DNA from: Acidisoma sp. L85
GTDB taxonomy: Bacteria > Pseudomonadota > Alphaproteobacteria > Acetobacterales > Acetobacteraceae
NCBI RefSeq assembly: GCF_009765865.1
Contig: NZ_LMUQ01000073.1
Span: 218,111-282,110 of the forward strand
Length of the DNA stretch: 64,000 bases
Direction of reading: 5' to 3'
A model generated the notes under the pieces. It saw nothing but the letters and a program-made list of their open reading frames with translations. It did no database searches and was not told the origin of the DNA. The position numbers and the translations under genes are program-made. Positions 3,807 to 21,501 of the stretch are shown here, piece after piece. Positions within the stretch are counted from its first letter, which is position 1. Each line of letters opens with the position of its first letter.

Positions 3807-5146
3807 ATGAGCGCCACCGCCGTCATCCTCGCCGCGGGTCTTGGCACCCGCATGAAATCCGCCCTGCCCAAAGCGATGCACCCCATCGCGGGCCGCCCGA
3901 TGCTCGCCCATCTGCTCGCCTCCGTCACCGCCGTTTTCGACAAGGTCGTGGTCGTGACAGGGCCAGAGATGGAAGCCGTGGCGCGCGCCGCGGCGCCGCA
4001 TGAGGTGGTGATCCAGTCGGACCGCCTCGGCACCGCCCATGCGGCACTCCACGCCGCGGCCCAGTTCGGGACCGGCGAGGTCGCCATTCTCTATGCCGAC
4101 AACCCGCTCATCACGCCGGAGACGCTGCGTCGCCTGAAGGAATCGCGGTCAGACAGCGGCGCCGGCCTGGCGCTGCTCGCCATGCGTCCGCCCGATCCTG
4201 GCCGCTATGGCCGCGTCATTCAGGACTCCAACGGTGATGTCACCGCGATCGTCGAATGGGCGGAGGCGAGCGAAACCGAACGCGCTGTTTCCCTCTGCAA
4301 TGCCGGGGTGTTCTGTGCCCCCGGCCCCGATCTCGCGCGCTGGCTGGCAGGCGTCAGCAACGCCAATGCAAAAGGCGAATACTACCTCACCGATGTCGTC
4401 GCCCTAGCAGTCGCCGAAGGCCGCCGCGTCGTCGCCGTCGAAGCCGATTACGGAGAACTGCGTGGCGTGAACTCCCGCGCCGAACTCGCCCAGGCGGAAG
4501 CCGCCGTGCAGTCCCGCCTGCGCCAGGCCGCCATGGCGGGCGGCGCGACACTCACCGCCCCCGACACCGTCTTCCTCTCCGCCGACACAGTGTTGGAGCC
4601 CGACGTCACAATCGGCCCCCACGTTGTTTTCGGTCCGGGCGTGACCGTGCGCTCCGGCGCCGAAATCCGCGCCTTCAGCCACCTCGAAGGATGCTTGGTC
4701 GCCGAGGGTGCCATCATCGGCCCTTATGCCCGGCTCCGCCCCGGCGCCGAGGTCGGCGAGCGGGCTCATGTCGGCAATTTCGTCGAACTCAAGGCCACGA
4801 AACTCGGGGCCGGCGCCAAGGCCAACCACCTCGCCTATCTCGGGGATGCCGAGATCGGAGCCGGTTCCAATATCGGTGCCGGCACCATCACCTGCAATTA
4901 CGACGGCTTCGCCAAGCATCGCACGGTCATCGGCGCCCGCAGTTTCGTCGGCTCCAACAGCACCATCGTCGCTCCGGTGACGCTCGGTCCCGGCAGCTTC
5001 ATCGCCGCCGGCAGCACCATCACCCGCGACGTTCCAGCCGATGGCCTCGCCTTCGGCCGCGCCCGTCAGTCGGTCAATGAAGGCGGCGCCACCGCCATTC
5101 GCGCGACCTGGATCAGGCCCGCCCCACCCGAGAAGGAGACGCGCTG

Positions 5147-7806: not shown

Positions 7807-9225
7807 ATGAGCTCCGTCATGTCGTTCGGCGCGGCGCTGCTGCGTTGCAAGCCCGTGGGTGCGTTGGCCGACGAGGCGGATGCAGGACGCGGCGGTCATC
7901 TGGCGCGCTCGATGGGGCTGTTTCAGCTGGTGATGCTGGGCGTCGGCGCCACTGTCGGCACTGGTATCTTCGTCGCCTTGACGGCCGCGGTGCCGGAATC
8001 AGGGCCCGGCGTGATGATCTCTTTCGTCATCGCGGGCGTCACCGCCGCGTTGACCGCGCTGTGCTACGCCGAGCTTGCCTCGACCATTCCCGTGTCCGGC
8101 TCTTCGTATTCTTATGCTTATGCCACGCTCGGGGAATTTTTCGCCTTCATTGTCGGCGCCTGCCTGCTGCTTGAATACGCCGTGTCGGCCTCGGCGATCG
8201 CCGTGGGGTGGGGCCAATATCTGAATGAATTGCTGCGCGACGTGACGGGCCTGCAGATGCCCGCGTCGATCAGCCAGCCGCCCGGGGCAGGTGGTGTGTT
8301 CAATGTGCCGGCCGTCGTGCTGGTCGCGATCTGTACACTGCTGCTGCTGCGAGGAGCGCGTGAGTCCGCCACGGTGAACGCCGTTCTGGTGCTGGTGAAA
8401 CTCGGCGTGCTTTTGCTGTTCGTCGTGATCGCGCTGACGGCATTCAAGCCCCACAATCTGACGCCATTCACGCCGCATGGCTGGGTCGGCGTGGGCACCG
8501 CCGCCTCGACAATTTTCTTTTCCTATATCGGCATCGACGCCGTATCGACCGCCGGTGACGAGGTGAAGGATCCTGGCCGCACCTTGCCGCTGGGCATCAT
8601 CATATCGCTGGTCCTGGTGACCTGCATTTACTTCGCTGTCGCCTTCGCGGCGGTGGGCGCGCAGCCCTGGACCGAGTTCGCCGGACAGAACGCCGGCTTG
8701 GCAGTGATTTTGCGCAACGTCACCGGAGCGGCTTGGCCGTCGCTGCTATTCTCGGTGGGGGCGATCATCTCGATCTTCAGCGTGATGTTGGTGACCATGT
8801 ATGGACAGACGCGTATTCTCTTCACCATGAGCCGTGACGGGCTGCTCCCGAAGCTTTTCCAAACCCTCGATCCGAAGACACGGTCGCCAACAAACAACAC
8901 GCTGATCGTCGCGGGTTTCGTCGCGGCGCTTGCCGCGGTGGTACCGCTGGGTGTGCTCGTCAACCTGACGAGCATGGGCACGCTGGTGGCTTTCGGTGTT
9001 GTTTCGCTGGGTGTCATGATCTTGCGGCGCACCCGGCCCGACCTCAAGCGGGGATTCCGGGTGCCGCTTTATCCGCTCGTGCCGGTGGCGAGCGTGGGCT
9101 TCTGCCTCTATCTCGTGACCGAGCTGCCGAGGCAGACGCATCTGTTGTTCGTGCTCTGGGTGGTTGCGGCGCTGCTGTTGTATTTCGGTTATTCGTTCCG
9201 CAATTCAGAAATGTCGGCAAAGTAG
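7807..9225 (+). CDS. APC-superfamily amino-acid permease
   Basis: This 472-residue inner-membrane protein has about twelve hydrophobic segments. The first begins LVMLGVGATVGTGIFV, the glycine-rich TM1 signature of APC transporters, and is followed by the PVSGSSYSYAY stretch of TM3. It most resembles the cationic amino-acid/YfnA branch, which moves amino acids with protons. Substrate cannot be told from sequence. The next gene, a ChaA-like antiporter, starts 18 bp downstream on the same strand, so the two are likely co-transcribed. Confidence 0.85.
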   Translation: MSSVMSFGAALLRCKPVGALADEADAGRGGHLARSMGLFQLVMLGVGATVGTGIFVALTAAVPESGPGVMISFVIAGVTAALTALCYAELASTIPVSGSSYSYAYATLGEFFAFIVGACLLLEYAVSASAIAVGWGQYLNELLRDVTGLQMPASISQPPGAGGVFNVPAVVLVAICTLLLLRGARESATVNAVLVLVKLGVLLLFVVIALTAFKPHNLTPFTPHGWVGVGTAASTIFFSYIGIDAVSTAGDEVKDPGRTLPLGIIISLVLVTCIYFAVAFAAVGAQPWTEFAGQNAGLAVILRNVTGAAWPSLLFSVGAIISIFSVMLVTMYGQTRILFTMSRDGLLPKLFQTLDPKTRSPTNNTLIVAGFVAALAAVVPLGVLVNLTSMGTLVAFGVVSLGVMILRRTRPDLKRGFRVPLYPLVPVASVGFCLYLVTELPRQTHLLFVLWVVAALLLYFGYSFRNSEMSAK

Positions 9226-13721: not shown

Positions 13722-16661
13722 ATGGGGAGCCTCGTCTTGACGGCACTTACCGTAACGAATTTGAACGACTCCGGCACTGGCTCTCTGCGCGCCGCCATTG
13801 TGGCTGCAAACGCTGCCCCGATCGGAACTCAGTCAACGATCGATTTTGCCGTCAGCGGAACCGTTGCGTTGCAGAGCGATCTTCCTCCGATCGCGCGCAG
13901 TGTCGTCATCGACGCGACCACCGCACCGGGCCATCAAACGGGTGGAGCGCCCAGCGTCGAACTCAATTGCAACGGCAATGCGGGTCTTGTTTTCGCGCCG
14001 GGTTCGGACAATTCGCAGCTTCTCGGTGTCGCCTTGGGCGATGCTTCGGGCAATGGCGTCACTTTAGATTCCAGCGCCATCACACTCGCGGGAAATTATA
14101 TTGGTCTGAACCTCCAGGGAACGGCTTTCGGCAACGGCGGAGACGGTATCCACGTCTCCGCCACTTCAGCCAACGATATAATCGGTTCGAATCCAACCGC
14201 CGCCTCTGGCGTAATTTCCAATGTCGTCTCCGGAAATGCCGGAAACGGAATAGTTCTCGATGGTTCCTTCGGCAATACCTTGGTCAATAACTACATCGGA
14301 ACGGACCCCACCGGCACCAAAGCAATCGCGAATGGCGGCAACGGCGTTTGGGTGACGGGCGCATCCCACGGCAACACAATCGGCGGAACAGCCTTTACCG
14401 ATACCGCAACCGGCGCGGTCAATAACCCGACCGGCGACAAGGGATCCGTCCCCGCGGTTTTCGTCGTGCCGCCACTTGGGAATCTCGTGTCTGGCAATGG
14501 CGCGAACGGCATCCTTATCGACAACAATTCTCAGAACAATGTACTAAACGGAAATTTTGTCGGCACCACCGCCGACGGTGATTCAGCGCTCGGGAATGCG
14601 TTGGACGGCGTCGCCATCAACGGGGCCAACAACAATTCTCTGATTGGCTGCCAGTTCGTCAACAACCCGTTCGTCTACTACAATGTCCTAAGCGCGAACG
14701 GTGGGAACGGTCTTCACGTCACTAACTCGGACAACGTCACAGTTCAGGCCAATTTCTTCGGAATTGGCGCCAATAATACCACGGTAATCGGAAATGCGCT
14801 GAACGGCATCCTTGTTGATGGTAGTTCTAAAAACACCCAGGTCGGCGGCGTCATTCCCTTGGGGAATGTCTCGGCCGGCAATGGGCAGAACGGCATAGAG
14901 GTCGCGGGAACCGCCAGCGGCTTCACGACCTTCAACACCTTCGGTGGCTTGCTGGCGTTCAAAGGCGCCGCGCCGAACGGCAATGATGGGCTCCTCATCA
15001 CCTCGACCGGCGGCGGCCAGTTGAGCCGAACAAATGTTTTCTCCGGCAATGCCAATAACGGCATCGAAATCGGTGGGAACGCTTCTGGTGTCACGGTTGA
15101 TCCGGATATCGTGGGCCTCACGACGGATGGAACCGGGCTGCTTCCCAATAGAGGGAACGGCGTCGTGCTCGATGGCACGGCTCACGACAACATCATCGGT
15201 GGTGATCTGGGTTCCGTCATCCCGGAAAATCTTTTCTCCGGCAATGACGGCTATGGCCTCGCGATTCTGAACCAGGCCCATGACAATCAGGTCCTCAATA
15301 CCTGGGTTGGGGTCGATGCTCTCGGCACTGTGCCGGATGGCACGTCGCCGCAATCCTTTGGCAATCAGCTGGGCGGCATCCTGGTCGGCGATACGGCAAT
15401 GGGCAATATCATCGGCGGCACCGCGCCCGGAGGCGAGCCCGTTGCTGATGTGGTGAGCGGTAACGTCGGCAACGGCATCACCCTGGCGAGTAGCACAAGC
15501 TCAACCGAGATAACTAACGACATCATCGGATTCGGTTCCGACGGCATAAAGCCCGTCCCGAACACCGGCGATTCCATTGCTACGAACGCGAGCACGAACA
15601 ACACCATCTCCAACAATCTGGTGTTCGCCGGAAACACCTTGGAACCCTTCGTCTTCAGCGGCGGAGGCGGCCTTGAATCCTTCGCCAACGCCTCCTTTGG
15701 CGACCAATCGGTCTTCTACGCCGGCTCGGGTCCGCTTCCCGACCCAGCCACATCTGGCAATGGCACCCTCGTCATCAACGGAAGCGGTTCCGATATCACG
15801 GTGCCGGGTGGGTATTCGGCCATCTATGATGAGGTCGGCAACGATACCATCACCGGCAGCGGCAATCTGAGCATCTATTTGCAGGGCGATCTTTCGATCG
15901 GCACCGACTTCAGCACGGGCTCAGGGGCGGACACCATCTTCGCGGGCGGTGCCGATACGATCACGGGCGGCTTGGGCAACAGCAGCGTTATCACAAACGG
16001 AAACAACTCCGTTGTCGGAGGATCCGGCTCCATCACGGTCGACGATACGTCGGGGAACAATCTTTCCTTCGTGGGCGGCAGTGGTGCCGCTTCGGTTATC
16101 GGTGGCGCCGGGAATTCCACGCTCTTCGGAAGCACAGGATCCAGCGCGACATTCCTCGCGGGCGGATCCGGCAACAGCACACTAATGGGCGGTTCGGGAA
16201 CAGGCGCATCGACGATCGGCGGCGGCAACAACGTCACGGCCTTCGCATCCGGCAACGGACCGGCGACGCTCACCGCGGGAACCGGCAGTTCCCTGCTGAA
16301 CGGAACGACTGGCACGGGAAACGAGCTCGTCAGCACAAACCCGCTCGGCAACAGCGGCTCCGCCCTTATCGGGCTGAACGCGGCGGCCGACACCGTCGTT
16401 GGGGGCAGCGGCAACTCGACAATCGTGGGCGGCGCCGGGCCAGACACCTACGCATTCCTGTCGGGTCATGCGGGAGGCACAGCGACGATCCTCGGCTTGG
16501 CGGATGGCGACATAATCGCCTTCGGTGGCTATGAAAATGCCGCGGGTGGGACGGCCAACCCCATTCAGACGGAAACGGTTGTCGATGGCAGCGATCAGAT
16601 CAAACTGACGGATGGAACAACGATCAACCTGACGGGGGTCAACCACACTCTCTTCACCTAG
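13722..16661 (+). CDS. large exported-type right-handed beta-helix / glycine-rich repeat protein
   Basis: A 979-residue protein with two repeat zones. Residues about 10-640 hold many loosely repeated units such as GNGGDGIHV, GNAGNGIVLDG and NNYIG, spaced as in parallel beta-helix (pectate-lyase-like) proteins. The opening TVTNLNDSGTGSLRAAI is common in large bacterial surface proteins. Residues about 700-900 switch to Gly/Asn/Ser-rich units (GGSGNSTLMGGSG, GADTIFAGGADTI) resembling degenerate RTX repeats. The end, GPDTYAFLSGHAGGTATILG onward, resembles type I secretion C-termini. No N-terminal signal peptide is seen, which supports type I export, but no transporter is encoded nearby. No catalytic site is recognisable. 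The ATG at 13722 lacks a clear ribosome site. Confidence 0.8.
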   Translation: MGSLVLTALTVTNLNDSGTGSLRAAIVAANAAPIGTQSTIDFAVSGTVALQSDLPPIARSVVIDATTAPGHQTGGAPSVELNCNGNAGLVFAPGSDNSQLLGVALGDASGNGVTLDSSAITLAGNYIGLNLQGTAFGNGGDGIHVSATSANDIIGSNPTAASGVISNVVSGNAGNGIVLDGSFGNTLVNNYIGTDPTGTKAIANGGNGVWVTGASHGNTIGGTAFTDTATGAVNNPTGDKGSVPAVFVVPPLGNLVSGNGANGILIDNNSQNNVLNGNFVGTTADGDSALGNALDGVAINGANNNSLIGCQFVNNPFVYYNVLSANGGNGLHVTNSDNVTVQANFFGIGANNTTVIGNALNGILVDGSSKNTQVGGVIPLGNVSAGNGQNGIEVAGTASGFTTFNTFGGLLAFKGAAPNGNDGLLITSTGGGQLSRTNVFSGNANNGIEIGGNASGVTVDPDIVGLTTDGTGLLPNRGNGVVLDGTAHDNIIGGDLGSVIPENLFSGNDGYGLAILNQAHDNQVLNTWVGVDALGTVPDGTSPQSFGNQLGGILVGDTAMGNIIGGTAPGGEPVADVVSGNVGNGITLASSTSSTEITNDIIGFGSDGIKPVPNTGDSIATNASTNNTISNNLVFAGNTLEPFVFSGGGGLESFANASFGDQSVFYAGSGPLPDPATSGNGTLVINGSGSDITVPGGYSAIYDEVGNDTITGSGNLSIYLQGDLSIGTDFSTGSGADTIFAGGADTITGGLGNSSVITNGNNSVVGGSGSITVDDTSGNNLSFVGGSGAASVIGGAGNSTLFGSTGSSATFLAGGSGNSTLMGGSGTGASTIGGGNNVTAFASGNGPATLTAGTGSSLLNGTTGTGNELVSTNPLGNSGSALIGLNAAADTVVGGSGNSTIVGGAGPDTYAFLSGHAGGTATILGLADGDIIAFGGYENAAGGTANPIQTETVVDGSDQIKLTDGTTINLTGVNHTLFT

Positions 16662-16726: not shown

Positions 16727-17515
16727 ATGATTCTGTTTCCACCACTCATCTCCCTGATCATCCTGCTTATCATCTTCGGCGGCGCGCTGGTCGGCATGCT
16801 GATCGCGCGTCGCCTGCCTGAACAGCATCTCAGCAGCGAAACAAAAGCTGTTATCACTACCTCCATGGCGGTCGTGGGAACCATGTCGGCTTTGGTCATC
16901 AGTCTATTGATCTCGAGCGCCAATACGTCGTTTTCGGCACGCAACGCGGAAGTCGCACAGTTGTCGACCGATATCATCAGAATGAACAGTTTGCTCGTCC
17001 GCTATGGACCCGCAGCCGATCCCGCCCGTCAGGCTCTGCAACAATATGCCGCGATGACCTACCACGACCTTTTCGCACGAAGAGAGGGTAGGAAGACGAC
17101 AGTTGAAAACGCTTCAACGGACAAAGTGTTGGAGCAAATTCAGGATCGTATTCTGAATCTCAAGTCCGGCGACAGCCGCCAGCAATGGCTGGCCTCGCAA
17201 GCGCTCCAACTCGCCGCCGATGTCAGCGCTGCGCGATGGTTACTGGTGCAGGAGGAGGTGAGTTCCTTTCCATTGCCATTCCTCGGCGCGGTCATCCTTT
17301 GGCTAACCGTCCTATTCGCGAGCTACGGTCTGTTCGCACCCAGAAATGTCACAGCGCTCGTCGCCATATTTCTCTGCGCATTCGCGGTCGCGGCGGCGGT
17401 CAAGCTGATCCTTGATATGGACACACCTTTCGCGGGTGGCATCCGGCTGTCGGCTCCCCCGATCCGAATATCAAGTGACCCGATACGCCACGCAATCGAA
17501 CTTCTAGGCAAGTGA
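16727..17515 (+). CDS. DUF4239 (bestrophin-like) membrane protein
   Basis: A 262-residue membrane protein. Two hydrophobic segments near the N-terminus (about 3-25 and 40-63) and two near the C-terminus (about 188-235) flank a soluble, helical middle. The DMDTPFAGGIRLSAPPIR segment near the C-terminus is typical of DUF4239. Function is unknown; the fold is thought to be bestrophin-like, so a channel role is only a guess. It is followed within 6 bp by a small exported protein gene. Confidence 0.75.
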   Translation: MILFPPLISLIILLIIFGGALVGMLIARRLPEQHLSSETKAVITTSMAVVGTMSALVISLLISSANTSFSARNAEVAQLSTDIIRMNSLLVRYGPAADPARQALQQYAAMTYHDLFARREGRKTTVENASTDKVLEQIQDRILNLKSGDSRQQWLASQALQLAADVSAARWLLVQEEVSSFPLPFLGAVILWLTVLFASYGLFAPRNVTALVAIFLCAFAVAAAVKLILDMDTPFAGGIRLSAPPIRISSDPIRHAIELLGK

Positions 17516-17902: not shown

Positions 17903-18688
17903 TTAGAATCTTTTCCAGATCCGCACGAACTCCGCCAAATCCTGGGCGTTTACATCGGATACCAGCCAATAAGTGGCCCCGTCCTGATTCCAATGCAGGA
18001 AATTATAGCCGTCGCGGCTCCCGGATGACGAGATGGGTGTGACGGCATTCGTGTCGGGCCAGGTGAACAGGTTGATGATATGCTTGCCATGCTTGTAGAT
18101 CAGCGCTGCCGCTAGGCGCCCGTCGAGATATTCAAGCCGCCCGCCGACCAAAGGGAAGCCTTTCGACGTCAGGTCCTTTACGGGTGGCGCGAACGGCAGT
18201 CGGCCGTCGAACCAGGGCTTGACCGTGTGCTGGTCAGTCGAAACCACATCCATGAGATGCCCTGGCTGAAGTGCCCGGATATGGGCTGAAACCACAGCAT
18301 CCTGTAGGGCCACTCCTCCGCTGGGAAGCAGGAGGAACAGCCCTAACGAAGCGGCGACCGCGAAGCCTGCACCGAAGGAGGCGCTGGATGCGAAAGGCAG
18401 CCGGACCTGCCAACGCGATCGCCTAGCGCGACGCGCGCTCGGCACTGGGGCGGGGGCGGCGGCCCTGATGGCGCCATCGATAGCGTCGCGCAATGCCTGG
18501 GACGCCGTGTAGCGGGGCGCCTCCTCCCGCAATCGGCGGGACAGTGCGAGTAGCTGAGCTTGCGTCTCCGCGCAGGCCGGGCAGCGCTCCAGATGGGCGC
18601 CCACGCGCGCGGCATCGGCCACCGGCAGTTCGCCATCGACATCGGCTTGGATGAGCAGTTGCATCTCGTCGCAGGTGCTATCGCTCAA
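17903..18688 (-). CDS. anti-sigma factor with zinc-finger (zf-HC2) domain
   Basis: 261 residues. The N-terminus has Cys6 and the HLERCPAC motif (His32, Cys36, Cys39), the Hx3Cx2C zinc-binding anti-sigma signature. A basic linker leads to one membrane segment at about 101-123, then a periplasmic domain of about 135 residues. It should hold the neighbouring ECF sigma factor at the membrane until a signal arrives. The start overlaps the sigma stop by 4 nt. The periplasmic part contains YWLVSDVNAQDLAEF, as in other ECF anti-sigma proteins. The signal is unknown; Cys/His zinc centres can be redox-sensitive. Confidence 0.88.
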   Translation of the reverse strand: MSDSTCDEMQLLIQADVDGELPVADAARVGAHLERCPACAETQAQLLALSRRLREEAPRYTASQALRDAIDGAIRAAAPAPVPSARRARRSRWQVRLPFASSASFGAGFAVAASLGLFLLLPSGGVALQDAVVSAHIRALQPGHLMDVVSTDQHTVKPWFDGRLPFAPPVKDLTSKGFPLVGGRLEYLDGRLAAALIYKHGKHIINLFTWPDTNAVTPISSSGSRDGYNFLHWNQDGATYWLVSDVNAQDLAEFVRIWKRF

Positions 18689-19260
18689 ACCACTTCTCCT
18701 TCAACCTGCGTGCCGAGGATCGCCTGGCGTGCCCGCCAAAGCCGCGACATGACGGTGCCGACCGGTAGGCCAATGACCTGAGCGATCTCCTTGTAGGAAA
18801 GTTCCTCCAACTCCCGGAGAACCAGACATTCACGCAACTCCACTGGCAAGGCGGAAAGGGCACGTTCGAGACTGTCGAGCCGTTCGCGATGAGCCAGCGC
18901 CTCCTCAGGATCGTCCGACGGATCCGGAATATTCAGAACAACATCGTCGTCGGCGAAGGACGACGCCCCGGCATGCCGCGTTTCGACGGTCTGCTTTCGG
19001 GCCGCAAGAGTGCTGTAAGCAGCATTGCGGACGATTTGCATGAGCCAGGCGCGCGCATCGCCGCCGCGAAACGACGGAAAGTAATTCAAAGCGCGAAGCA
19101 CGGCTTCCTGCACCACGTCCTCGGCGAGGCTCGCATCCCGCACGAGCCATCGCGCAAGATTGTTTGCGGAATCGAGGTGCGGCAATACGACTTGCTCAAA
19201 TGTCGTGCTGTCCGCAGGGCTCTTTAACCGATCGGTAGCCGGTCGCAGAGGCCACTTCAT
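18685..19260 (-). CDS. ECF-family RNA polymerase sigma factor
   Basis: With the start at 19260 the protein is 191 residues. Region 2 spans about 22-86 (DASLAEDVVQEAVLRAL and GDARAWLMQIVRNAAY) and region 4 spans about 128-178 (LPVELRECLVLRELEELSYK, then GLPVGTVMSRLWRAR). There is no region 3, as expected of ECF sigmas. GAGAG precedes the ATG at good spacing; longer starts add 43 unrelated residues. It is translationally coupled to the anti-sigma gene. Candidate target promoters lie at 20036-20063 and 21474-21501, but the gene's own upstream region lacks that motif. Confidence 0.93.
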   Translation of the reverse strand: MKWPLRPATDRLKSPADSTTFEQVVLPHLDSANNLARWLVRDASLAEDVVQEAVLRALNYFPSFRGGDARAWLMQIVRNAAYSTLAARKQTVETRHAGASSFADDDVVLNIPDPSDDPEEALAHRERLDSLERALSALPVELRECLVLRELEELSYKEIAQVIGLPVGTVMSRLWRARQAILGTQVEGEVV

Positions 19261-19469
19261 CGAACAGCTCTCGTCACCTCTATGACTCCGTTGCCGCGGA
19301 GCCGGGAAAGTCATTACAACCCCGTGGCGCCCCGAAGCCAAGGGCATGTCGAGCACTATACCGAAATATGCCCGACCTGCCCCAAACATAGACTTAGCCG
19401 TCGCCGGTGTCGAGCGGGTGGCATTGCGCAGCTACCGGCCAGCCCGCCCTATTTGCAAACAAAAGCAGA

Positions 19470-19670
19470 TCAACCTCCCATTGTATATCGGTGGCCTTCG
19501 GTTGACGTTTGCTGGGTATAGAAGGCGGTTTGAGCGGCGGCATCGCCTGCACCGGCGGTTGCGGCCGAGCCTTCGCCGGGCAAAGAAAGTTCGGATACCT
19601 GCGGCGGTCCGGACACCGCGCATCCGGCGAGTGCAACGCATACCGCAATAGCGGACAATAGTTTTCGCAT
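19470..19670 (-). CDS. small lipoprotein (66 aa)
   Basis: Starts MRKLLSAIAVCVALAGCAVSG. LAGC is a clear lipobox, so Cys17 should be acylated, leaving about 50 residues rich in Ser, Ala and Gly. There are no recognisable domains. It lies between the sigma/anti-sigma pair and a second tiny exported protein, all on the same strand, which suggests membership of the same envelope-stress set. It lacks the shared promoter motif found upstream of the other two units. Confidence 0.65.
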   Translation of the reverse strand: MRKLLSAIAVCVALAGCAVSGPPQVSELSLPGEGSAATAGAGDAAAQTAFYTQQTSTEGHRYTMGG

Positions 19671-19713
19671 GACAGATCCAATTCTGTGTAAGGAAACTAA
19701 TTCGGCAAAGCGC

Positions 19714-19737
19714 GGCGGTGACGCGAGGATCGCCGCC
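19714..19737 (-). terminator. possible stem-loop between two small exported genes
   Basis: GGCGGTGA (19714-19721) can pair with TCGCCGCC (19730-19737) with one G-T pair and an 8-nt loop. It lies downstream of the 19790-20005 gene on its strand. The following tract, GCTTTGCC, is only weakly T-rich, so this call is tentative. Confidence 0.3.
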
Positions 19738-19789
19738 GGCTTCGAGATCGGAAGAACCAGAAGGTTGTATGTATTGACCGATCTAGATA

Positions 19790-20005
19790 TTAGGCGAGAT
19801 AATCCGGTCTCTGACTTGGCATAACAACGCTGTTGCTACCTTGAGTGCTATTACCGGCAAGGTAAGTGGGGTGCTGATTCGGCAAGACAGTCTCGTTCCG
19901 CGCCTCTTTGTACGAATTGTGGCTCGAGACCGGCTGACCAGCCATCGCGACCCCCGTCATGCCGAGCGTCACCGCCGCGATAGCCGCCATCAGAATGCTT
20001 TTCAT
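19790..20005 (-). CDS. small exported protein with duplicated P-x-Q-x-P-x-YLA motif
   Basis: 71 residues. A signal peptide ends TGVAMAG (cut after about residue 22). The mature part is about 49 residues and repeats one motif: VLPNQHPTYLAG at 41-52 and VMPSQRPDYLA at the C-terminus. AAGGAA precedes the ATG at good spacing. The promoter-like motif GAATAAA-N15-GTCTCT lies 31-58 bp upstream, matching the one ahead of the metallophosphoesterase-cupredoxin operon, so control by the neighbouring ECF sigma is likely. I do not recognise a family and function is unknown. Confidence 0.72.
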   Translation of the reverse strand: MKSILMAAIAAVTLGMTGVAMAGQPVSSHNSYKEARNETVLPNQHPTYLAGNSTQGSNSVVMPSQRPDYLA

Positions 20006-20035: not shown

Positions 20036-20063
20036 AGAGACCACAACGTGGCTCGATTTATTC
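20036..20063 (-). promoter_or_regulatory. putative ECF-sigma promoter (GAATAAA-N15-GTCTCT)
   Basis: On the minus strand, GAATAAA (20063-20057) and GTCTCT (20041-20036) are separated by exactly 15 nt. The predicted transcription start is about 20 nt before the ATG at 20005. The same two boxes with the same spacing occur at 21474-21501. I noticed no third copy in the window, though the search was by eye. Confidence 0.6.
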
Positions 20064-20142
20064 CGTCTATTCGAATTATTCTGCGTTTTATATAGCCGTG
20101 AGCGTAAAGAAATGCGTCCGTCAAAAGATGTGCTTGGAAAAC

Positions 20143-20466
20143 CTACCGCACGACGACTGTGCCCAACATGTATGGATGCACTGAACAGTAATATTGATAC
20201 GTGCCAGCCTTGGTGAATACATGAGCGAAGCTATCGCCGGTATCGAGCGCCGGTGACGAGATCGTCGGCGCCGCGGTCGCTTCCACCACGGTATGTGGCA
20301 TGTCGTCCTGGTTGGTCCAGATCACGCGGGTTCCAGCATCGACAACGAGTTGCGCAGGCGAGAACTTGAAATTGTCGATCGTCACCCGCGCATCCGCCGC
20401 GAAGGCGGTTCGGGCAGTCAGCAGCAGCGCGCAGGTGAGGATCGCGGCGTATTTAATTCTGGTCAT
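20143..20466 (-). CDS. periplasmic cupredoxin (plastocyanin/amicyanin-like)
   Basis: 107 residues with a signal peptide ending TAFA (cut after about residue 23). The mature part is a single cupredoxin domain. Type I copper ligands are visible as His58 (MPHTVV), Cys94 and His97 (YYCSVHPYM), with Met100 as the axial ligand. Such proteins carry electrons in the periplasm. AAGGA lies before the ATG. The metallophosphoesterase gene ends 23 bp upstream on the same strand, so the two form an operon under the putative ECF promoter at 21474-21501. Confidence 0.9.
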   Translation of the reverse strand: MTRIKYAAILTCALLLTARTAFAADARVTIDNFKFSPAQLVVDAGTRVIWTNQDDMPHTVVEATAAPTISSPALDTGDSFAHVFTKAGTYQYYCSVHPYMLGTVVVR

Positions 20467-20489
20467 AAGAATTTTCCTTGAGTCGGATG

Positions 20490-21446
20490 TCAGGCAGCGA
20501 GCGTCGTGTCGATGATGGCGAGCGGTGTCGCGGTCCGGACTCGCGTGACTTTCGTAATCCCAAGCATGGCGCGCAGATGGCCCGGCGGGACGTTTTTCAT
20601 CGGCCCTGGCGACGCGGCGGTTCCGGGCGCCGGCTGCGGGAAAGCCGTCGAGCGCGCGGTATGGAAGGCGCAATTGCCTTCGACTTTCTGCATGATCTGA
20701 TGGATATGTCCGTTAAGCACGGTGACCGAGCCGAAGCGGCGCAGCAGTGTGAGAGCCTGCCCTGCATCGGCGGTTCCCCAGCCCCATGCCTCGCTCACAG
20801 TCCAGAGTGGAACATGGGCGAAAACAACGATCGGCTGACTTGCCGAACGGCCCTCCAAATCCTTGGCGAGCCAATCGAGCTGATCGGCACCAAGATTGCC
20901 CATCCCGCCGGCCTTGAAATTCTGCACATTGTTGAGTGCAATGAAATGGACGCCGGCTTGATCGAAAGAATACCAGCCGCGTGGAGCCTTTGGTGCGAAG
21001 CGCGCGAAGAAAGCCTTGCCGTCGTCGAATAGCACGTCGTGCTCCCCCGGCACGTAATGAGTGTCGAGCCTCGCGCCACGGATGATCTGGTCGGCTGTGT
21101 CGAACTGCTTTGCCTTCGACAAATGGCTGACATCGCCCGTGTGAATCATTAGGCCAGCATTGCTCTTCTGAGCATTCACCAATGCGATGGCCGCCTGCAG
21201 CGTGCCGGGCGTATCGGTATTCGGCGGATGGTTGAAGCCGATATGGCTATCGCTGATCTGTAGGAAACTGAAAGTGGCGTCAGATTCGGTAGCTGCCTCT
21301 GCGGCTCCGATCAGTCGGGAATGCGGCACGCCGCCGGTGACCGTCCATAATACCCCGGCACCGGCCCAAACCATGCATTCCAGCGCCTCACGGCGAGACT
21401 TCCCGCCATTTCGGCTAGTCTCTGAAGCGTCAAAAACCTCGTTCAT
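20490..21446 (-). CDS. Tat-exported metallophosphoesterase
   Basis: 318 residues. The N-terminus has a twin-arginine signal (SRREAL at 17-22, then a hydrophobic run), so the folded protein should reach the periplasm. The calcineurin-like phosphoesterase motifs are all present: Asp66/His68 (SDSHIG), Asp105 (TGDVSH), GEHD at 134-137, AHVP and GHIH. These bind two metals and cleave phosphomono- or diesters; the substrate is unknown. GAGGAGA precedes the ATG at 21446; a GTG 6 nt earlier is less likely. It is the first gene of an operon with the cupredoxin. Confidence 0.9.
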   Translation of the reverse strand: MNEVFDASETSRNGGKSRREALECMVWAGAGVLWTVTGGVPHSRLIGAAEAATESDATFSFLQISDSHIGFNHPPNTDTPGTLQAAIALVNAQKSNAGLMIHTGDVSHLSKAKQFDTADQIIRGARLDTHYVPGEHDVLFDDGKAFFARFAPKAPRGWYSFDQAGVHFIALNNVQNFKAGGMGNLGADQLDWLAKDLEGRSASQPIVVFAHVPLWTVSEAWGWGTADAGQALTLLRRFGSVTVLNGHIHQIMQKVEGNCAFHTARSTAFPQPAPGTAASPGPMKNVPPGHLRAMLGITKVTRVRTATPLAIIDTTLAA

Positions 21447-21473
21447 CGTCACGTCTCCTCATGTGTCTGAGGT

Positions 21474-21501
21474 AGAGACCGAGGGGAGACGCGCTTTATT
21501 C
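21474..21501 (-). promoter_or_regulatory. putative ECF-sigma promoter (GAATAAA-N15-GTCTCT)
   Basis: On the minus strand, GAATAAA (21501-21495) and GTCTCT (21479-21474) are 15 nt apart, identical in boxes and spacing to the site at 20036-20063. The expected transcription start is about 20 nt before the metallophosphoesterase ATG. The spacer sequences differ, so this is not a simple duplication. Confidence 0.6.

Follow-up and report, generated by a model that had tools for sequence, protein, structure and literature searches.

A candidate ECF sigma switch in Acidisoma sp. L85 with two copies of a GAATAAA-N15-GTCTCT promoter-like site

Background

Which protein would read two identical bipartite motifs that stand before exported-protein genes close to an ECF sigma gene, and which genes would such a pair of sites control? 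The question is raised by a stretch of 64,000 nucleotides of the genome of Acidisoma sp. L85, a member of the Acetobacteraceae (contig NZ_LMUQ01000073.1, positions 218,111 to 282,110; hereafter the window), in which a first-pass annotation had noted GAATAAA-N15-GTCTCT twice on the minus strand and had put the motif forward as a strong candidate for the recognition sequence of the neighbouring sigma factor. A membrane-bound zinc-type anti-sigma factor together with autoregulation is the standard layout of ECF systems. At this locus the sigma gene, its likely promoters and its likely regulon lie within about 4 kb, and many natural replicates of the arrangement are available in other genera. In this study, the two sites were analyzed in the window, in the host genome and at related sigma loci, and were compared with published ECF promoters.

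The two sites and the genes of the locus

Both sites were recovered at the coordinates and on the strand originally noted (21501-21474 and 20063-20036), and their spacers are indeed unlike each other. The first, P1 (GAATAAA-N15-GTCTCT, 21474..21501, minus strand), lies 5' of a metallophosphoesterase gene, and the second, P2 (GGAATAAA-N15-GTCTCT, 20036..20063, minus strand), lies 5' of the gene of a 71-aa exported protein. The distance to the start codons of these exported-protein genes, given earlier as about 20-30 nt, was measured from the last base of GTCTCT as 30 nt to the ATG of the 71-aa protein for P2 and as 21 nt (GTG) or 27 nt (ATG) to the metallophosphoesterase start for P1. The sigma/anti-sigma pair had been placed 1-2 kb away on the same strand; the strand was correct, but the distance was not, the likely sigma start (19260) following P2 by about 0.8 kb and P1 by about 2.2 kb.

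All genes between P1 and the end of the anti-sigma gene are encoded on the minus strand. The exported metallophosphoesterase (20490..21446 from the ATG, with a GTG at 21452 also possible; PF00149, E 2.6e-11), whose N-terminus appears twin-arginine-like when the signal is read by eye, is followed by an exported cupredoxin (20143..20466; PF00127, E 3.4e-12), the small exported protein of 71 aa (19790..20005), which belongs to a family found in the host genus alone, and a putative lipoprotein of 66 aa (19470..19670) with a lipobox-like LAGC, likewise read by eye. Next come the ECF sigma factor (18685..19260, 191 aa from the ATG at 19260; PF08281 and PF04542) and the anti-sigma factor (17903..18688; PF13490, zf-HC2, E 2.6e-8). 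The sigma gene could also start at an in-frame ATG at 19389; homology to Roseomonas sets in with the first residue of the 191-aa form. The anti-sigma factor has a zinc-type N-terminus, HLERCPAC (HxxxCxxC), one clearly hydrophobic stretch and a C-terminal part, which would fit the ECF26 type with its N-terminal anti-sigma domain, single membrane segment and periplasmic C-terminal part, the side of the membrane being a prediction. A GC-rich RNA hairpin is predicted between the small gene and the lipoprotein gene (19706..19744, minus strand, coordinates set by hand; fold of 19671-19795, z -3.21) and may act as a partial stop or mark an mRNA end; terminator prediction called no intrinsic terminator anywhere between the genes of the locus, the hairpin included. 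Beyond the anti-sigma gene lie a bestrophin-like gene (16727-17515) and then, on the other strand, the gene of a 979-aa protein rich in asparagine-glycine repeats (13722-16661).

Rarity of the motif in the window and the host genome

P1 and P2 are the only 2 matches to GAATAAA-N15-GTCTCT in the whole 64-kb window, and 100 dinucleotide shuffles of the window contained 0 matches. A scan of the full genome, which the first-pass annotation had suggested as a check, covered 6,376,414 bases in 85 contigs (6.38 Mb) and returned exactly 2 strict matches, again P1 and P2, both upstream of genes; the strict pattern read backwards gave 0 matches in the same genome. Under a first-order Markov model about 0.0004 matches per window and about 0.04 per genome are expected by chance, figures that are optimistic because the pattern was picked after being seen, the independent tests being the loci of relatives. 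The sites and their rarity are established, and a chance repeat of the motif was rejected on the shuffles, the genome scan, the Markov estimate and the spacer spectrum described below.

With the relaxed pattern GAATAAAN{14,17}GTCT, 5 matches were found in the host genome, namely P1, P2 and three more. GAATA-N17-GTCT gave 24 matches versus 6 for a backwards control that is unlike the pattern in dinucleotide make-up. Apart from P1 and P2, 18 of these 22 looser matches fall inside an open frame of 100 aa or more on either strand and four (L186, L192, L193 and L199) fall outside such frames, a test that is crude because P1 too overlaps an open frame, of 109 aa; just 1 of the 22 has the full GAATAAA. 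A wider regulon in the host genome was rejected; two of the looser matches, with a variant -35 element (GAATAC or GAATAT), remain candidates, L179 and L185, in which plausible long frames begin 78 and 12 nt after the match.

Recurrence of the site beside related sigma genes

Related loci were collected in two ways. A scan of genome contigs with the sigma protein yielded 385 related loci, of which 80 were kept, and a search of 150 genomes of the same bacterial family yielded 30 loci, including that of the window. Spacers were counted over 109 loci (the 80 from the contig scan and 29 family loci) as GAATAAA-Nk-GTC with k from 5 to 30. The spacing k = 15 was found in 34 of the 109 loci, two of which (L013 and L104) are one genome counted twice, and any other spacing in the range in at most 4. 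By class, this strict site occurs in 16 of the 28 contig-scan loci with anti-sigma homology, in 18 of the 29 family loci and in 0 of the 52 remaining, more distant sigma loci of the contig scan. Among the strict loci are records labelled Roseomonas, Rhodovarius, Mesorhizobium, Bradyrhizobium and Burkholderia, as well as metagenome bins labelled Acidobacteria, Terriglobia and Abditibacteriaceae, the bin labels being possibly wrong. Homologous sigma genes of other genera, and of other phyla if the record labels are right, have the same elements with the same 15-nt spacer next to them. Across 35 strict sites, the base before GAATAAA is G in 57% and C in 37%, the base before GTC is G in 71%, and T follows GTC in 66%. 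One bin labelled Abditibacteriaceae (L015) carries two strict sites, at 4797 and 4857, back to back upstream of the sigma gene, as if controlling a divergent pair of units.

Recurrence extends to the position of the site. Of the 28 family loci with the phosphoesterase gene, 21 carry GAATA-N17-GTC on its strand, 40-128 nt ahead of the point where the phosphoesterase match begins; 6 of 9 other loci with such a gene show it within 200 nt. Recurrence at the same place in relatives is established as well. No such site precedes the phosphoesterase in the other 7 of the 28 (L095, L098, L099, L109, L114, L116 and L117), the upstream sequence of L099 and L114 being 29 and 88 nt long. In whole genomes, GAATAAA-N15-GTCT was found in 37 of the 150 family members, with 52 sites in all. 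Of the 34 genomes in which the sigma match reaches 118 bits or more, 17 have it, versus 20 of the 116 others, where the cut-off was chosen after the list was seen and some of the 116 are small genomes that also match the backwards control. By a hand count, 14 of the 52 sites, in 12 genomes, are within about 2 kb of a sigma match.

In principle, an operator could also have this bipartite form, and the sites might then be bound by a transcription factor, or form some other regulatory element, rather than being read by a sigma factor. The spacer is fixed at 15 nt, a single orientation is kept, the sites stand shortly before start codons and recur with the sigma gene, and the motif is identical with the mapped ECF promoters discussed below; we therefore hold a non-sigma reader to be highly improbable.

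A matrix was built from 34 distinct sites of other loci, all of which match GAATAAA and GTC. It ranks P1 first in the window (19.1) and P2 second (16.0), the third match scoring 12.4. The best score in 100 simulated windows averaged 12.4 and reached a maximum of 22.9 once, so that a single high score is undecisive and the ranking is what informs. Of the published promoters scored, the two that contain GAATAAA reach 24.0 and 18.2; for three promoters that belong to other sigma factors the scores are -7.8 to -23.9. Published variants score low (rpoE4 6.8, SMc04291 4.5, ecfR6 8.0, SMa0142 8.7 and sorT -14.6) because the matrix holds just GAATAAA and GTC sites.

Comparison with published ECF promoters

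The motif of S. meliloti RpoE1 is given as GAAT-N18-GTCT (PMC3616915), and the SMc01418-rpoE1 promoter in Table 1 of PMC6180224 contains GAATAAA-N15-GTCT; both window sites have this RpoE1-type spacing. The consensus of ECF26 promoters is GGAATA at -35 and GT at -10 (PMC6180224), which both sites fit except for the base before GAATA in P1, which is A (AGAATA). The earlier remark that a GGAATA-type -35 is known in an ECF group is thus true for ECF26, as a matter of the type of -35 element and not of the group of the window sigma factor. Since the window motif equals the RpoE1 motif, its specificity is already known; the motif identity is established, and it joins the recurrence in relatives in supporting the view that the motif is a strong candidate for the recognition sequence of the sigma factor. 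In an Ensifer genome the exact motif was found before a Lipoprotein_15 gene that adjoins an ECF sigma gene, which matches the SMc01418-rpoE1 arrangement.

The S. meliloti RpoE1 system (SMc01418-rpoE1-ecfR1, ECF26) resembles the locus in its GAATAAA-N15-GTCT promoter (PMC6180224, PMC3616915) and in having an exported-protein gene 5' and an anti-sigma gene 3' of the sigma gene, and it is autoregulated, as we propose for the window (PMC6180224, PMC3511301). It differs in three respects: the gene before rpoE1 encodes a Lipoprotein_15 protein, which is absent from the window; the sigma proteins fall in separate clades; and the published targets concern sulfite, whereas those proposed here are a phosphoesterase and a cupredoxin. 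PF03640 (Lipoprotein_15), whose gene opens the RpoE1-like operons of some ECF26 members only, had no match in the 71-aa protein, nor in the putative lipoprotein, for which the query was approximate with an inexact C-terminal tail. The sulfite-oxidase systems of S. meliloti RpoE4 and Starkeya SigE share the GGAAT/CGTC promoter class (PMC6180224; sulfite-oxidase promoters in PMC6527743), and the RpoE4 target operon includes pseudoazurin, a cupredoxin like that of the window (PMC6180224, PMC6527743). Those operons, however, centre on sulfite oxidase, and none was seen between the window sites and the sigma gene. RpoE1 and RpoE4 have been tied to sulfite (PMC3511301), and sulfite as the inducing signal is a lead, drawn from S. 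meliloti alone.

The promoter type is already known and the sigma factor is one more of a known kind. On the conserved phosphoesterase-cupredoxin regulon, a search of open-licence full texts found no paper, none linking an ECF sigma factor with a phosphoesterase and a cupredoxin or plastocyanin. In the text of PMC3817407, the terms ECF26, ggaata/GGAAT and cross-species were not found.

Placement of the sigma factor and other possible readers

In a tree of 36 rows, the window sigma factor falls in a clade of 23 (support 97/90) that contains neither the Ensifer RpoE1-type protein nor S. meliloti RpoE6, nor L130, the sigma factor of a similar cassette in a congener, whose place is unsure. A tree of 111 rows agrees, with support of 87 for a group of 57 in which L130 is included. 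Both trees are midpoint-rooted with long branches, and no RpoE3 or RpoE4 was identified among their rows; left out were L112 and L201 (stop in the match), L085 (short), L202 and L022 (copies), and L200 and L203 (no sigma match). Because both trees set it apart, on long branches, we describe the protein as a probable reader of an ECF26-type promoter and not as a member of ECF26, and claim no ECF group for it. Its best NCBIfam match, NF009185, is below the cut-off (195.5 vs 248 bits). An alternative group might be ECF33.

The -35 helix GTVMSRLxRAR is common to the window sigma factor, the Ensifer RpoE1-type protein and RpoE6, and L035, a locus without the site, has GTVRSRIFRAR. In a count in which 32 of 111 proteins were unparsed, M in this helix was found in 30 of the 34 proteins whose locus has a strict site, the remaining 4 being unparsed, and also in 13 of 69 without a site nearby. 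This residue is compatible with the site specificity and is not proof of it.

The sites could be ECF promoters that are mainly read by another ECF sigma factor, with the local one being one of several readers or serving other genes. The host genome holds 7 matches to the sigma protein, and one of them, a paralogue on contig C69 (L119, 5718-6200) that is 48% identical to the window sigma factor and shows no match to the window anti-sigma factor within the 14 kb examined, could share its specificity. ECF26-type sigma factors of S. meliloti are reported to cross-activate each other's promoters and a foreign ECF26 promoter (PMC6180224, PMC10880074), the latter being activated by RpoE1, RpoE4 and RpoE6 and not by RpoE3 (PMC10880074). 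In a congener (G130, L131) a site at 2510 precedes the phosphoesterase and cupredoxin genes, and the 3.9 kb examined there contain no match to the sigma or the anti-sigma factor. This locus, the family loci without the site and the helix residue in site-less proteins likewise count against the local sigma factor as reader. Against a reader from elsewhere, the site travels with this sigma gene in loci of conserved gene order, and the C69 paralogue lacks a site in its vicinity; we judge it improbable that another sigma factor is the main reader.

Conserved operon and proposed switch

Among the family loci, the phosphoesterase gene stands beside the sigma gene in 28 of 29 (55-76% identical) and the cupredoxin gene in 27 of 29, the anti-sigma gene is conserved beside the sigma gene, and the order phosphoesterase-cupredoxin-sigma-anti-sigma is colinear in 24 of 29 (hand count). 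Operons of this kind in the family (L089, L091, L093 and L106) and in Mesorhizobium (L030 and L032) consist of orthologous genes, with the same site ahead of the phosphoesterase gene. Unlike these colinear operons with one site, the window has about 0.9 kb extra between the cupredoxin and sigma genes, comprising the small gene, the putative lipoprotein gene and P2, whose place has no conserved counterpart in relatives.

The locus is best read as an ECF switch under its own control whose regulon here is very small, and P1 and P2 very probably are its start signals; for the whole reading, in which both are ECF promoters read by the adjacent sigma factor and the switch is held by its anti-sigma factor and controls its own synthesis, we put the probability at roughly 0.87. 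From the arrangement of genes and sites we infer binding, transcription start, release, transcription through to the sigma gene and a signal as follows. The -35 would be a GGAATAAA-type and the -10 a GGTCT-type element. At rest, the sigma factor would be held by the membrane-bound zinc-type anti-sigma factor, and an envelope signal would free it. RNA polymerase would then start at P1, giving phosphoesterase and cupredoxin, and at P2, giving the small exported protein, the putative lipoprotein and probably the sigma and anti-sigma factors. With starts at both sites, two exported effectors would rise and the switch would feed back on itself. A single P1-type promoter would serve all four genes in most relatives, and in the window the additional stretch, which brings a further copy of the site, parts the effectors from the regulators.

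About 0.8 kb, including two small genes and the hairpin, separates P2 from the sigma gene downstream. P2 perhaps drives the sigma and anti-sigma genes, and the GC-rich hairpin (19744-19706) may limit this; the hairpin and two gaps that would have to be passed count against transcription from P2 to the sigma gene. A search for the stress that activates P1 would make the role of the phosphoesterase and the cupredoxin testable.

Origin of the inserted stretch

A search of the 150 family genomes found relatives of the 71-aa exported protein in just 3, all from the host genus; the protein has 0 Pfam and 0 NCBIfam matches. The host genome has four genes of its family, one with matches in two stretches. 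Several copies in this family (L170, L172, L174, L175 and L177) contain tandem 15-residue ARNEQVSPQQRPAYL-type repeats, up to about 10 in L175. The putative lipoprotein had 0 matches in 59 other genomes searched and one weak match, with a stop, elsewhere in the host genome.

No site was found before the eight other copies of the small gene in nine loci of 3 kb (L170-L178), L175 and L176 having one looser match each on the opposite strand beyond the small gene. This, and the lack of a counterpart in most relatives at the place of P2, would suit a history in which P1 is a real promoter and P2 a passive or inactive copy that arrived with the inserted stretch. Yet both elements of P2 are exact, its spacer is unlike that of P1, a start codon follows 30 nt on, and in another genome (G041) a second site of similar kind precedes the gene of a small exported protein; we consider a passive P2 unlikely. 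The second site of G041 (L127), at 8602, precedes a different small exported protein (8112-8543) and lies upstream of the phosphoesterase operon, which implies that small secreted proteins may have joined the regulon more than once.

Taking P2 as active, the locus suggests a route by which a lineage-restricted secreted protein can enter an existing stress switch, namely through one extra copy of the promoter. More tentatively, and at somewhat less than even odds, the sigma factor may represent an undescribed ECF clade, apart from S. meliloti ECF26, that reads the same GAATAAA/GTCT promoter and answers an envelope signal with a conserved response of exported phosphoesterase and cupredoxin; the insert, opening the operon in this lineage, would have added a genus-restricted secreted protein of a tandem-repeat family by way of the second promoter copy.

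As a separate observation, the window phosphoesterase shares 76% identity with its counterpart in another genus (L089) and just 57-58% with those of two congeners (L130 and L131), which suggests inter-genus transfer or old paralogues.
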